From Flavobacterium ovatum (GTDB lineage: Bacteria > Bacteroidota > Bacteroidia > Flavobacteriales > Flavobacteriaceae), in contig NZ_CP160035.1 of the NCBI RefSeq assembly GCF_040703125.1, forward strand, positions 3,272,001-3,336,000: a stretch of DNA of 64,000 nucleotides, read 5' to 3'. The notes below the pieces were generated by a model that saw nothing but the letters and a program-made list of their open reading frames with translations, made no database searches and was not told where the DNA came from. Both the position numbers and the translations under genes were made by a program. This document shows positions 44,308 through 50,911 of the stretch, in pieces; the first letter of the stretch is position 1; every line of letters starts with the position of its first letter.

Positions 44308-44445
44308 CGTCAGTTCGAGTGCTTTTATTTCCAAATGTGATAGCTTTTGGATGTAAAAGTGTATCGAGAACGCTACTGAAAACAAGGCGACTTCTCGATA
44401 CATTTTTTCCTCCGCTCCGCTGCACAAAAAACACTCGTACTGACG
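44308..44445. repeat. Long palindromic element (MITE-like), full copy
   Basis: The outer arms CGTCAGTTCGAGTG (44308-44321) and 44432-44445 pair with one mismatch. The inner arms TGTATCGAGAA (44360-44370) and 44392-44402 pair perfectly. The right half includes CCTCCGCTCCGCTGC. A half copy with the same left arms follows clpB at 47788-47847. No coding capacity. Confidence 0.8.
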
Positions 44446-44479
44446 ATGTATAGGATATATTTTTAACTAATTGCGAAAA

Positions 44480-44640
44480 ATCCGTTTTCATCAGCGTTTT
44501 CGCAATAGCGAATCCGTTTCATCAGCGGACCAACAACGAATCCTATTGAAAACAAGGCTTCGACAAGCTCAGCCAGACAAAGAAATCCGTTTTCATCTGC
44601 GTCTTCGCGATAGCGAATCAGCGTCATCCGTGTCCCAACA
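44480..44640 (+). repeat. Further copies of the TTCGCGATAGCGAA repeat
   Basis: Two variants, around 44480-44527 (TTTTCGCAATAGCGAATCCG) and 44584-44640 (GTCTTCGCGATAGCGAATCA then CATCCGTGTCCCAAC). The second ends exactly like the inverted copy after proB. Between them lies a GGCTTCGACAAGCTCAGCC stretch. The whole 44295-44641 spacer is repeat material. Confidence 0.75.
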
Positions 44641-44641
44641 A

Positions 44642-45025
44642 CTAAATTTTGCTTTTCAACTCCACAGCATCGATATCACTGTGCGAAGCATCATAAACCG
44701 CTTTACCATTTTTAATCACAATCAACTGAGGTGATTGGTGGTACACGCCAAACTTAGAAGCAATTTCGTTCGAAATATCACGGTGCTCCAATAAATCTAA
44801 GAAATAAGGAGTCACTTCCGCTTCCGAATTAAATTCGTTTTCGAACTGTTTCAAAGCCATTCGGCTAATGCTACAACGGGTACTGTGTTTGAAAATAGCA
44901 GCTGGTTTTTCACTTGCAGCTATTGCGTCTAATTGTGCTAAATCAGTCAATGCCGTCCAATTCATTTTCTGAACTTCTTGTTTTGGAGCGTCATCACCCC
45001 CGAAGATATTTTTTAAAAAACTCAT
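44642..45025 (-). CDS. ytxJ: Bacillithiol-system redox protein YtxJ
   Basis: A 127-residue monothiol glutaredoxin/thioredoxin-fold protein. The redox-active segment is FKHSTRCSISRMAL, with a single cysteine at about residue 51. YHQSPQLIVIKNGKAVYDASHSDI (about 92-115) provides the cis-proline-type loop. YtxJ homologs are associated with bacillithiol, the low-molecular-weight thiol of Firmicutes and many Bacteroidota. The start is ATG 45025 (MSFLKNIFGG), typical for the family, rather than the upstream in-frame ATG at 45055. Confidence 0.82.
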   Translation of the reverse strand: MSFLKNIFGGDDAPKQEVQKMNWTALTDLAQLDAIAASEKPAAIFKHSTRCSISRMALKQFENEFNSEAEVTPYFLDLLEHRDISNEIASKFGVYHQSPQLIVIKNGKAVYDASHSDIDAVELKSKI

Positions 45026-47787: not shown

Positions 47788-47847
47788 CGTCAGTTCGAGT
47801 GTTTTTTGTGTAATGAAATGGAACAAAAAATGTATCGAGAACTTTTT
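47788..47847 (+). repeat. Half copy of the long palindromic element
   Basis: CGTCAGTTCGAGTG (47788-47801) and TGTATCGAGAA (47831-47841) match the left arms of the full copy at 44308-44445 in order and orientation. The right half is missing. It starts 9 bases after the clpB stop. Confidence 0.75.
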
Positions 47848-48039: not shown

Positions 48040-48047
48040 TATATTTG
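48040..48047 (+). promoter_or_regulatory. -7 box of the nucleotidyltransferase/DUF262 pair
   Basis: TATATTTG matches TAnnTTTG. A TTTG lies 15 bases upstream (48021-48024), somewhat close. The leader to the ATG at 48150 is about 95 bases. Confidence 0.45.
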
Positions 48048-48149: not shown

Positions 48150-48740
48150 ATGAACAAAGAAAATTTAATCCATAAAATAAATTCAAGTACAGAGTTAGAT
48201 ATTTATTACGAATATTTACTTGGGCAAGAAGTTTGGTATTTTAAAAACAATGGAGACAATTTTAGTTCTGATTATGATTCATTTAAGAAATTCATATCTA
48301 GAAAACTAAATATTCCTTTTAATAATGTATCAGTTGTAGGCAGTGCTAAAACAAGGTACAGCTTTTCTCCAACAAAAAAATTATCCGAATTTCACAATAA
48401 ATCAGATTTTGATTTAATTATCGTTTCTAGAAATCTCTTTTATGATATTTGGTCTGCTTATCGAGAAGTTTCAAAAGGTCAATATCTTGATGGCTTTAGT
48501 CAAAAGTGCGGCAATATATTTGGCGGTTTTATAAGCGTTAAGGATGATGATAAAACATATGGAAATTATACTCTTGAAAATTGGCAAAAAAAGGTTCTTT
48601 CTTTTAAAGCCGAACTTCAGTTAACATTTAACATACAACACGAAATCAATTATAGAATTTATTCTGACTGGGAATCAGTTGAAGCATATCATTTAAAAGG
48701 AATAACAAAATTAAAAAACATCATCAATGAAATTAATTGA
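48150..48740 (+). CDS. Nucleotidyltransferase-fold protein paired with DUF262
   Basis: A 196-residue protein of unknown family. VVGSAKTRYSF puts a GS motif at residues 64-65, and KSDFDLIIVS puts a D-x-D at 86-88. That is the Gly-Ser...Asp-x-Asp signature of the nucleotidyltransferase superfamily, with a longer than usual insertion between them. A third acidic residue is not obvious (E155 or D173 are candidates). It overlaps the DUF262 gene by 14 bases, so the pair is translationally coupled. It could be a minimal NTase, a CD-NTase-like enzyme or an antitoxin-type NTase; I cannot choose. Confidence 0.55.
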   Translation: MNKENLIHKINSSTELDIYYEYLLGQEVWYFKNNGDNFSSDYDSFKKFISRKLNIPFNNVSVVGSAKTRYSFSPTKKLSEFHNKSDFDLIIVSRNLFYDIWSAYREVSKGQYLDGFSQKCGNIFGGFISVKDDDKTYGNYTLENWQKKVLSFKAELQLTFNIQHEINYRIYSDWESVEAYHLKGITKLKNIINEIN

Positions 48741-49794
48741 ACAAATTGACATTCAACCTCAAACAGCAAAATGGCTATATGATTTAAGCCAAAAAGGACT
48801 ATTAGAAGTTGATAATTCTTTTCAAAGAAATTATGTGTGGATAGAAAAAAACCAAATTCAATTAATCGAATCAATATTAATTGGCTACCCTATTCCTGAA
48901 ATATATTTATGGAATACGGGAACTGATGAAAATACAGGAGACACTAAATATTCAATAATTGACGGACAACAAAGATGCGGAGCTGTATTTCAATATATTG
49001 CTAATACATTTAAACTAAAAGCTTCAAGTTTAAACGAAAACAATCCTAAAAAAACTACTATTCAAGATAGATTTTTTAAAGATTTAGAAGCTGATGACAA
49101 AAAGGCAATTTGGTCATATGTATTCTCTGTTAGACTAGTAAGAAATCAAGTACAAAGAACCGCTATTGTAAATATGTTTCTTAGATTGAACAGTAATAAT
49201 ATGACATTAAATCCTCAAGAATTAAGAAATGCTGAATTCGAAGGGGAATTTATGCTTTTATCATCTGAGTTAGCCGAGCTTGATTTTTGGGAAGACAATA
49301 AACTTTTTGGTATTGCAGATCGAAGAAGAATGAGAGATGTATCATTTGTAAGTACTCTATTAGTCTTTCTAAAAAAGGGAATAGAAGAAGATATAGGAAA
49401 CTCTAATTTGAATCAGATATACGATTTATACAATGATGACTATACAGATAAGCAAACTGATATAGATAAATTTAAGGTGATTTTAGATGAAATAAATACA
49501 ATAATTGATGGCAATACTGAGCGAATTAAAATATTAAAAAGGCAGGTTCATTTTTACACGTTATTCACTGTTGTTTTTGATATTTTAAACAGTCAACCAA
49601 ATTTAACTGAAAGACAAATTGCAAATTACAGAGACTTCATTGATAACTATGAAAATGAAGTCCTTTTAGCACAGTATTATCCTGAATTAATTTCAGAAAT
49701 TTATGATTATAAATCACTAGTCAAAGAAGGTACAAGACAAAAGACTAACCGATTTAGTAGACATCTTCATTTAAAGAAAATAATCAATAAATGA
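48727..49794 (+). CDS. DUF262 (ParB/Srx-like) protein without an HNH domain
   Basis: A 355-residue protein. The DUF262 core is clear: SFQRNYVW (about 32-38), IESILIGYPIPEIYLW (about 47-62), IIDGQQR (about 77-83) and FLRLNSNNMTLNPQELRNAEF (about 145-165). DUF262 binds and hydrolyses nucleotides in GmrSD, BrxU and SspE, where a DUF1524 HNH nuclease is fused to it. Here the C-terminal half is helical and lacks HNH motifs. It starts inside the upstream nucleotidyltransferase-fold gene. A role in phage defence is an inference from family and context. Confidence 0.8.
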   Translation: MKLIEQIDIQPQTAKWLYDLSQKGLLEVDNSFQRNYVWIEKNQIQLIESILIGYPIPEIYLWNTGTDENTGDTKYSIIDGQQRCGAVFQYIANTFKLKASSLNENNPKKTTIQDRFFKDLEADDKKAIWSYVFSVRLVRNQVQRTAIVNMFLRLNSNNMTLNPQELRNAEFEGEFMLLSSELAELDFWEDNKLFGIADRRRMRDVSFVSTLLVFLKKGIEEDIGNSNLNQIYDLYNDDYTDKQTDIDKFKVILDEINTIIDGNTERIKILKRQVHFYTLFTVVFDILNSQPNLTERQIANYRDFIDNYENEVLLAQYYPELISEIYDYKSLVKEGTRQKTNRFSRHLHLKKIINK

Positions 49795-50341
49795 ACCAGC
49801 AGCTCTTCGAAGTCTTCATATAACAACTAAATATCATTAGGAATACTGTGCGAATATCTCCTGACTTCGCACACGCTCCTATTGTCTATAAAGTAAAATC
49901 AAATTATTTATACTTAAAAAATGAAATACTGTACGTGATTGCTTCCTTCGTCGCAATGACCTTAGTTTGCGTCCGTTGTTTGCCTAGAGATTCTTCGAGA
50001 AAGACAAACTTTGTGGATTTGCATTGCGCATAGTTTGGCGCTCATGAGCGTTCCAAAGCTTATATGAACTTCTATTGAATCCAGTTATAGAACCGCTATA
50101 GCCCTGACGACAAAGAAAAACTTATATGTCTTATATGGTTTAAAAAATTGCTAAAATAGCTGTAATTTGTAGAAAAGCTATGATGGGTTTCAAAATTTAT
50201 AAAACTATTCACCTGCCATGAAGAAATGAGAAAGTAAAAATAGCCTACTATTATAAAACTTTCCTAATATAGTAGCACAATTAAAAAGGCTGTCCTAACT
50301 TGTAATCGCAATAAACAGCTTACCTACTAATATATAAAAAA
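49795..50341. other. Gene-free spacer with a short palindrome
   Basis: No supported gene. A frame at 49848-50033 is open but has no family likeness, and its second half is repeat-like. At 50034-50057 a TTTGG...CCAAA pair frames the perfect 12-base palindrome CGCTCATGAGCG (50039-50050). The block ATTGCTTCCTTCGTCGCAAT around 49940 resembles common flavobacterial intergenic repeats. Confidence 0.5.
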
Positions 50342-50911
50342 ATGAATTTAAGAAATATAAAAAAATCCACCGTTCACAACATAATTTTCTTCGTGTTCAT
50401 TGGTTTACTATTGTTCAGCCCTATAGGAACGTTTGTAAAAGTGCAATTGAACCGATTAATAGCGTTCTCCCCAAAAACAATTGCGGTTACGGATCAAAAG
50501 AAACTCTCTAGCTACGAGTGGCAGTTGATGGATGCTAGCGGAAAGACGGTTTCGCTAAAAGATTATAAGGGCAAAATTATATTCATTAATTTTTGGGCTA
50601 CTTGGTGTCCTCCCTGTATTGCTGAGATGCCGAGTATGCAGAAGTTATATGACGATTATCAAAACAAAATCGTATTCTTGTTTGTTACCAATGACGACTT
50701 TACGAAAACAAATGCTTTTTTGACTAAACAGAATTTAAACTTACCCATCTATAAAGCTGCTGGCAATCCTCCTTTAGAATTGGAGTCTTCGACAATTCCA
50801 GCTACTTATGTCATTGATGCGCATGGCAATATTGTTTTGGCTAAAATTGGAACAGCAGACTGGAACAGTGACTCCTTTCGAAAAGAATTAGATGTATACA
50901 TAGGTGAATGA
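50342..50911 (+). CDS. TlpA-like membrane-anchored thiol-disulfide oxidoreductase
   Basis: A 189-residue protein with an N-terminal membrane anchor (about 13-31) and a thioredoxin-fold domain facing the periplasm. The active site is NFWATWCPPCIAEMP with the CPPC pair at residues 89-92. SSTIPATYVIDAHGNIV (about 150-166) provides the cis-proline loop and the following strand. TlpA/ResA-type proteins reduce periplasmic disulfides, for example in cytochrome maturation. It stands alone, so its partner is unknown. Confidence 0.87.
   Translation: MNLRNIKKSTVHNIIFFVFIGLLLFSPIGTFVKVQLNRLIAFSPKTIAVTDQKKLSSYEWQLMDASGKTVSLKDYKGKIIFINFWATWCPPCIAEMPSMQKLYDDYQNKIVFLFVTNDDFTKTNAFLTKQNLNLPIYKAAGNPPLELESSTIPATYVIDAHGNIVLAKIGTADWNSDSFRKELDVYIGE

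Follow-up and report, generated by a model that had tools for sequence, protein, structure and literature searches.

A nucleotidyltransferase-like gene paired with a nuclease-free DUF262 gene in Flavobacterium ovatum: a conserved, mobile unit and candidate defence module

PD-T4-2 and Menshen are two experimentally tested systems that contain a DUF262 protein. Deletion of PD-T4-2 from its native strain raises the plating of phage T4 (PMC9519451), and the review PMC10952713 lists this system both under DUF262 and under PF18735 HEPN; the text of PMC9519451 does not itself use the word DUF262. NsnA, NsnB and NsnC belong to Menshen, in agreement with the review. Here we describe two overlapping genes in a 64,000-nucleotide (nt) stretch of the Flavobacterium ovatum genome (contig NZ_CP160035.1, positions 3,272,001 to 3,336,000; this whole stretch is hereafter the window), the first encoding a small nucleotidyltransferase (NTase)-like protein and the second a DUF262 protein (Table 1). 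No such NTase-DUF262 pair is described in the available text of the literature surveyed on DUF262, GmrSD, NsnA, PD-T4-2 and Menshen. The two genes form a real, conserved and mobile unit common to distant bacteria and prophages, and we hypothesize, at roughly even chances, that this co-inherited, horizontally moving operon acts as an anti-phage (or anti-plasmid) module, with DUF262 as its switch and the NTase as its effector.

A preliminary description of this DNA had proposed the pair as a candidate system whose adjacency should recur in other genomes, and the adjacency does recur. A DUF262 gene lies directly downstream of the NTase gene in 14 of the 14 named genome contigs that encode the NTase (the L010 copy is cut by the contig end), in five of five viral contigs and in the single close plasmid match, pTHAF3_a. 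Matches to the NTase occur in 5 of 395 genomes sampled from the phylum and 8 of 397 from the family; with the overlap between the samples removed and the window's own genome counted, these amount to 11 genomes, and DUF262 is adjacent in eight of them, the window's included. The remaining three have a transglycosylase gene instead (G161 and G339) or neither gene (G371). Copies were found in 3 of 5,426 Escherichia coli genomes, and the two of these three regions that were read both hold the pair. The NTase gene comes first in all 24 measured pairs, and the 14-base overlap of the two frames, correctly reported before according to the coordinates of the open reading frames (ORFs), is kept in 13 of 14 measured close relatives, the other (L011) having 17 nt through an earlier start codon.

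The two proteins have also diverged together. Their distances correlate with a Mantel r of 0.98 over 25 loci, some of which are near-copies of one another so that not all are independent, and of 0.90 over 15 close loci, with 0 of 9,999 permutations as high in each case. In the four relatives compared, nonsynonymous divergence (dN) was 0.04 to 0.11 versus a synonymous divergence (dS) of 0.69 to 2.5, with dN/dS of about 0.04 to 0.10 for both genes, and both are under purifying selection. Chance adjacency as such was rejected on the basis of the unbroken adjacency in the named and viral contigs and the correlated divergence. The wider alternative, that the genes are neighbors by chance or serve a housekeeping role that has nothing to do with defence, would explain why many copies lie among ordinary genes in the neighborhoods read, but adjacency kept across phyla with correlated divergence, together with rare and patchy occurrence in the sampled genomes and carriage by prophages, makes it highly improbable.

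The pair is absent from the 1.5 kb following clpB in nine of nine genus relatives read, where the genes after clpB vary, and G+C content is 27 to 28% in the pair, 34% in the window and 44% in clpB. Defence genes are frequent cargo of P2-like and lambdoid prophages. The E. coli pairs, among them WP_064226191/WP_064226192, are prophage-borne, with the replicative helicase gene on one side and the antiterminator Q gene on the other, and this counterpart opens the pair to direct testing in laboratory strains. On viral contigs, the pair is near portal and gp25 baseplate genes in L065 and near a terminase gene in L067. Searching viral contigs with the DUF262 alignment yielded 28 loci, two of them with an NTase gene directly upstream, and these two pairs lie between repressor-like and integrase-like genes named by eye. 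A distant pair on a 4.3-kb contig (L059:12-4285) stands between two copies of one 421-amino-acid (aa) transposase-like gene, a composite-transposon-like arrangement recognized by eye; its NTase has only 170 aa, and the start may have been lost through insertion.

Table 1. Features of the gene pair and its upstream region in the window
Feature	Position	Strand	Remark
NTase-like gene	48150..48740	+	196 aa, intact ORF
DUF262 (GmrSD_N) gene	48727..49794	+	355 aa, intact ORF, no HNH
Overlap of the two frames	48727..48740	+	14 nt, from ORF coordinates
G64-S65 of hGS motif	48339..48344	+	both invariant in the 33-row alignment A1
D86-F87-D88, DxD metal motif	48405..48413	+	D86/D88 also invariant in 14 diverse members (alignment A3)
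S129, third predicted strand (127-131)	48534..48536	+	third catalytic acid might be expected there
Q33-R34 of QRNYVW motif	48823..48828	+	invariant in 53 rows of alignment A2
D79-GQQ-R83, NTP-pocket motif of DUF262	48961..48975	+	invariant in 53 rows of A2
TATATTTG, putative -7 box of Bacteroidota type	48040..48047	+	sole exact TAnnTTTG on the + strand in the gap after clpB

The second protein had been described as a DUF262 protein with QRNYVW and DGQQR motifs but without a DUF1524/HNH nuclease, and this holds: the motifs begin at Q33 and D79, Pfam places PF03235 (GmrSD_N/DUF262) at residues 29 to 171 (1.9e-24), and neither DUF1524/HNH nor any other Pfam domain was found in it. By the ORF list, the adjoining ORFs (NTase, clpB and TlpA-like) likewise encode no DUF1524/HNH nuclease. 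As controls for the nuclease models, GmrSD_C is matched by two further DUF262 proteins from this genome, and HNH PF01844 by 6 of 57 DUF262 relatives. Of the 57 proteins in this wider set, 28 carry DGQQR exactly and 56 fit DGxQR; the eight NTase-linked members have DGQQR in seven cases and DGKQR in one. The motif is assigned to the nucleoside triphosphate (NTP) pocket of DUF262, and nucleotide binding by DUF262 relatives is reported, in the available part of PMC10952713. The best PADLOC matches are NsnA (PDLC03877, 8.7e-38, residues 7 to 355) and PD-T4-2_A (5.4e-19), and a sequence search of the PDB returned no match. The second protein is a BrxU-like DUF262 protein, with the DUF262 domain and the helical part, minus the HNH part.

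The NTase carries hGS followed by DxD, as in Polymerase-beta-like nucleotidyltransferases. The signature pointed out earlier, GS at residues 64 and 65 and DFD at 86 to 88, is near-invariant over 110 aligned NTases (the window's, 103 relatives and 6 from loci): wherever a row has a letter, S65, D86 and D88 are always kept (109 of 109), and G64 is kept in 108 of 109. An unusual insertion of about 20 residues had also been claimed; 20 residues do separate GS from DxD, but small NTases of related genomes have a GS-x10-DxD spacing, so that the insertion relative to them, placed by a weak profile alignment, is about 10 residues. That alignment, to seven small NTases, pairs GS and SDxD with a P value of 0.00058 and a probability of 12%, or 0.0022 and 5% without two transglycosylase-linked rows. 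A known family label was considered for the NTase and rejected, as Pfam, NCBIfam and PADLOC searches gave no match at E values up to 10; the PDB sequence search gave none either, and INPHARED phage records held no match to it or to one viral-contig NTase.

The structure of the NTase was predicted with confidence, and nucleotidyltransferases fit the model best, though weakly: the model weakly suggests that the protein belongs to the fold class named in the preliminary description. HI0073, which serves as MNT partner in a two-protein NTase, comes first among the structural neighbors; others include CdnD (Z score, 3.4) and cGAS (Z score, 3.2), and one distant NTase relative matches the PADLOC "Cyclase" profile at 0.0018. 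These likenesses, and the nucleotide binding of DUF262 relatives noted above, would suit nucleotide signaling, with a small nucleotide produced by the NTase and bound in the DUF262 pocket. This reading appears decidedly improbable to us, since the window NTase has no PADLOC match, its Z scores to CdnD and cGAS are no higher than stated, and the protein has only 196 residues.

Position 129, on a strand taken from the predicted structure, is Ser in 104 of the 110 NTase rows and Asp or Glu in none; placed from strand order alone, Ser129 may be the equivalent of the third-acid site. The NTase could on this account be degenerate, a noncatalytic nucleic acid- or nucleotide-binding subunit that targets DUF262, perhaps in a restriction-like complex, and a restriction-modification-like arrangement does exist at two distant loci (G499 and G567), where the NTase gene shares 4 nt with an overlapping C5 DNA methyltransferase gene (PF00145). 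D86 and D88, however, are identical in every informative row and in the 14 diverse members, a constancy not called for in an inactive enzyme, and we regard degeneracy as rather improbable.

At these two loci the DUF262 proteins are about 500 aa long (503 in G499, with DGKQR, and 506 in G567), and one of the methyltransferases begins with an Arm-type DNA-binding domain. The arrangement suggests that the methyltransferase may provide a self/non-self mark in this branch. In L056:5904-10226 and L055:7644-11370, genes for a C5 DNA methyltransferase, an NTase and a long DUF262 protein follow one another, and the L056 methyltransferase has an N-terminal Arm DNA-binding domain (PF17293), usual in tyrosine recombinases. 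In L057:8291-9575, L060:2175-3501 and L101:7235-8489, the partner of a related NTase gene is not DUF262 but a GT51 peptidoglycan transglycosylase gene that stands alone (PF00912), with frame overlaps of 8, 107 and 14 nt, respectively, as counted from first-found or annotated starts. The L057 and L060 NTases have Asp in place of Ser129, and the NTase-transglycosylase pair of an Aliarcobacter plasmid is near DUF4365, PLD-like and TIR genes.

The partners of related DUF262 genes bear on what the NTase may do. The 57 loci are those of the best relatives from the same two genome samples (Bacteroidota), with proteins of 285 to 702 aa; all 57 match GmrSD_N, and no GmrSD_C match was tallied among them. 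A same-strand neighbor lies within 60 bp at 51 of the 57, and an NTase gene is the neighbor at 8. We scanned 46 of 54 listed neighbors (eight were dropped as cut by the locus end, masked, short in one case or itself DUF262 in another), counting matches at E ≤ 0.001, some of them below Pfam cutoffs, in tallies that cover 25 of 28 Pfam families and 25 of 255 PADLOC families. Sixteen matched HEPN_RiboL-PSP (PF18735), 10 were NsnB-like AAA ATPases, 3 matched FRG and 3 PAPS reductase, and there were single matches to SIR2_2, TIR_2, RelA_SpoT and protein kinase. Because the NTase accompanies DUF262 at only 8 of 57 Bacteroidota loci and 2 of 28 viral loci, it is one partner among several and not the rule; the variety of partners points to DUF262 as a common switch and the NTase as one of several effectors. 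Among individual loci, in L076:485-2517 a RelA/SpoT-domain gene (PF04607, 3.3e-10) comes after DUF262, another nucleotide-transferring partner. In L093:2311-3459, L095:2091-3218 and L108:2464-3579, DUF262 directly follows genes of similar beginning (...LGISGGKDSAALAIY...), which are probably the three PAPS_reduct matches; they might be connected with DNA phosphorothioation.

Some copies of the pair have known or candidate defence genes as neighbors. In Mesonia phycicola (L007), it begins 154 bp downstream of OloA/OloB (Olokun; PADLOC, 2e-76 and 2.5e-132); in L064 it adjoins a KAP NTPase gene (PF07693, 5.3e-43; PADLOC candidate PDC-S20), and in L066 an AAA_13 gene fragment (PDC-S06) is next to it. 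These neighbors were picked by eye for scanning, and such loci suggest that the pair clusters with defence genes. We infer a defence role in which DUF262 would be the sensor and the NTase the active effector. The DUF262 protein is of the BrxU/GmrS type, with a ParB/sulfiredoxin fold and a helical domain and without HNH; as an NTP-binding switch it would sense a phage process or incoming DNA and respond by changing its state through NTP binding or hydrolysis. The NTase would fill the partner place held by HEPN, SIR2, TIR, FRG or RelA/SpoT in sister operons and, once released or activated, would transfer nucleotides to cellular or phage RNA, protein or a small molecule, thereby stopping infection. 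Against a defence setting, housekeeping genes dominate the other neighborhoods read, with many copies of the pair among them. A simple analogy with the sister operons is weakened by partner order, the NTase and FRG genes being upstream of DUF262, whereas the individually named HEPN partners and the ATPase genes are downstream. The reading put forward at the outset, an undescribed two-gene system with a different effector logic, is supported in part.

MNT modifies HEPN by NMP-ylation (transfer of a nucleoside monophosphate), and the main rival to a sensor-effector module is a toxin-antitoxin-like arrangement in which the NTase, as antitoxin or silencer, would NMP-ylate DUF262, the toxic part, until its release on infection. 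The NTase-first order is a common antitoxin-first order, the best structural neighbor is an MNT partner, and the frames share a translational overlap of 14 nt. The DUF262 protein has no nuclease domain by Pfam, however, and the many unrelated neighbors of related DUF262 genes, several of known toxin types, fit DUF262 as a common switch better than as a toxin. We judge this rival unlikely, while according it some weight.

In the window, the pair is flanked by clpB upstream and a TlpA-like gene downstream, both named by eye. TAnnTTTG is the consensus of the Bacteroidota -7 element, and the one possible box (Table 1) stands about 100 nt ahead of the NTase ATG, with 0.31 matches expected by chance in the 370-nt gap on one strand at the window's own frequency; a shared upstream -7 box, as first described, is thus weakly supported. 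A 63-nt repeat in the 44392-44645 region (short repeats, 44478-44645) has copies near 36.8 to 37.4 kb, and a 54-nt inverted repeat pair lies at 47788-47841 and 44392-44445, so that window repeats stand on either side of clpB. The surroundings had been called rich in repeats and decayed genes, which holds in part: the repeats are there, and the pair itself is intact. The TlpA-like gene (50177-50911) has a second copy in the same genome (L058:9472-10205; 92% identity over 735 nt).

Small NTases in other systems poison tRNA, modify toxins or make immune signals, and the pair ties a nuclease-free DUF262 switch to this enzyme class. A bolder and more tentative proposal, to which we give somewhat less than an even chance, is that the nuclease-free DUF262 may be a general plug-in immune sensor with exchangeable HEPN, NTase, RelA/SpoT, SIR2, TIR, FRG or ATPase effectors. 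The NTase version would then be a two-gene immune system so far undescribed, with a small NTase as effector that has an unusual active site of two aspartates and acts on a new target, one branch being guided by a C5 methyltransferase self mark. Since related DUF262 genes have such varied neighbors, reading these neighbors should be a simple route to further effectors and also lets one ask what the nuclease-free DUF262 senses.

Compared with known systems, the pair shares the DUF262 domain, the DGQQR pocket and the BrxU-like helical part with the type IV restriction systems GmrSD, BrxU and SspE, but their DUF1524/HNH nuclease is neither in nor beside it. With HEPN/MNT toxin-antitoxin systems it shares a small NTase with GS and DxD, HI0073 being the first structure listed, but this NTase is paired with DUF262 and no HEPN, and its GS and DxD lie about 10 residues further apart. 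For the cGAS/DncV-like nucleotidyltransferases (CD-NTases) of cyclic-oligonucleotide-based antiphage signaling systems (CBASS), the comparison gives the CdnD Z score of 3.4, no PADLOC match for the window NTase and the "Cyclase" match of one distant relative. The DUF262 protein is NsnA-like, by its best PADLOC match, as in Menshen, but reading of the ORF list places no NsnB-like ATPase or OLD/TOPRIM gene next to the window pair, while 10 of the 46 neighbors elsewhere match NsnB. PD-T4-2 of E. coli likewise has DUF262 without DUF1524 and is matched through PD-T4-2_A, but its partner is HEPN, whereas the NTase-like partner in the window has no HEPN match in Pfam or PADLOC, with PF18735 matched by 16 of 46 neighbors elsewhere as a control. 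We read the pair as a variant within the DUF262 systems that lack DUF1524, a class already known, and as set apart there by its NTase partner.
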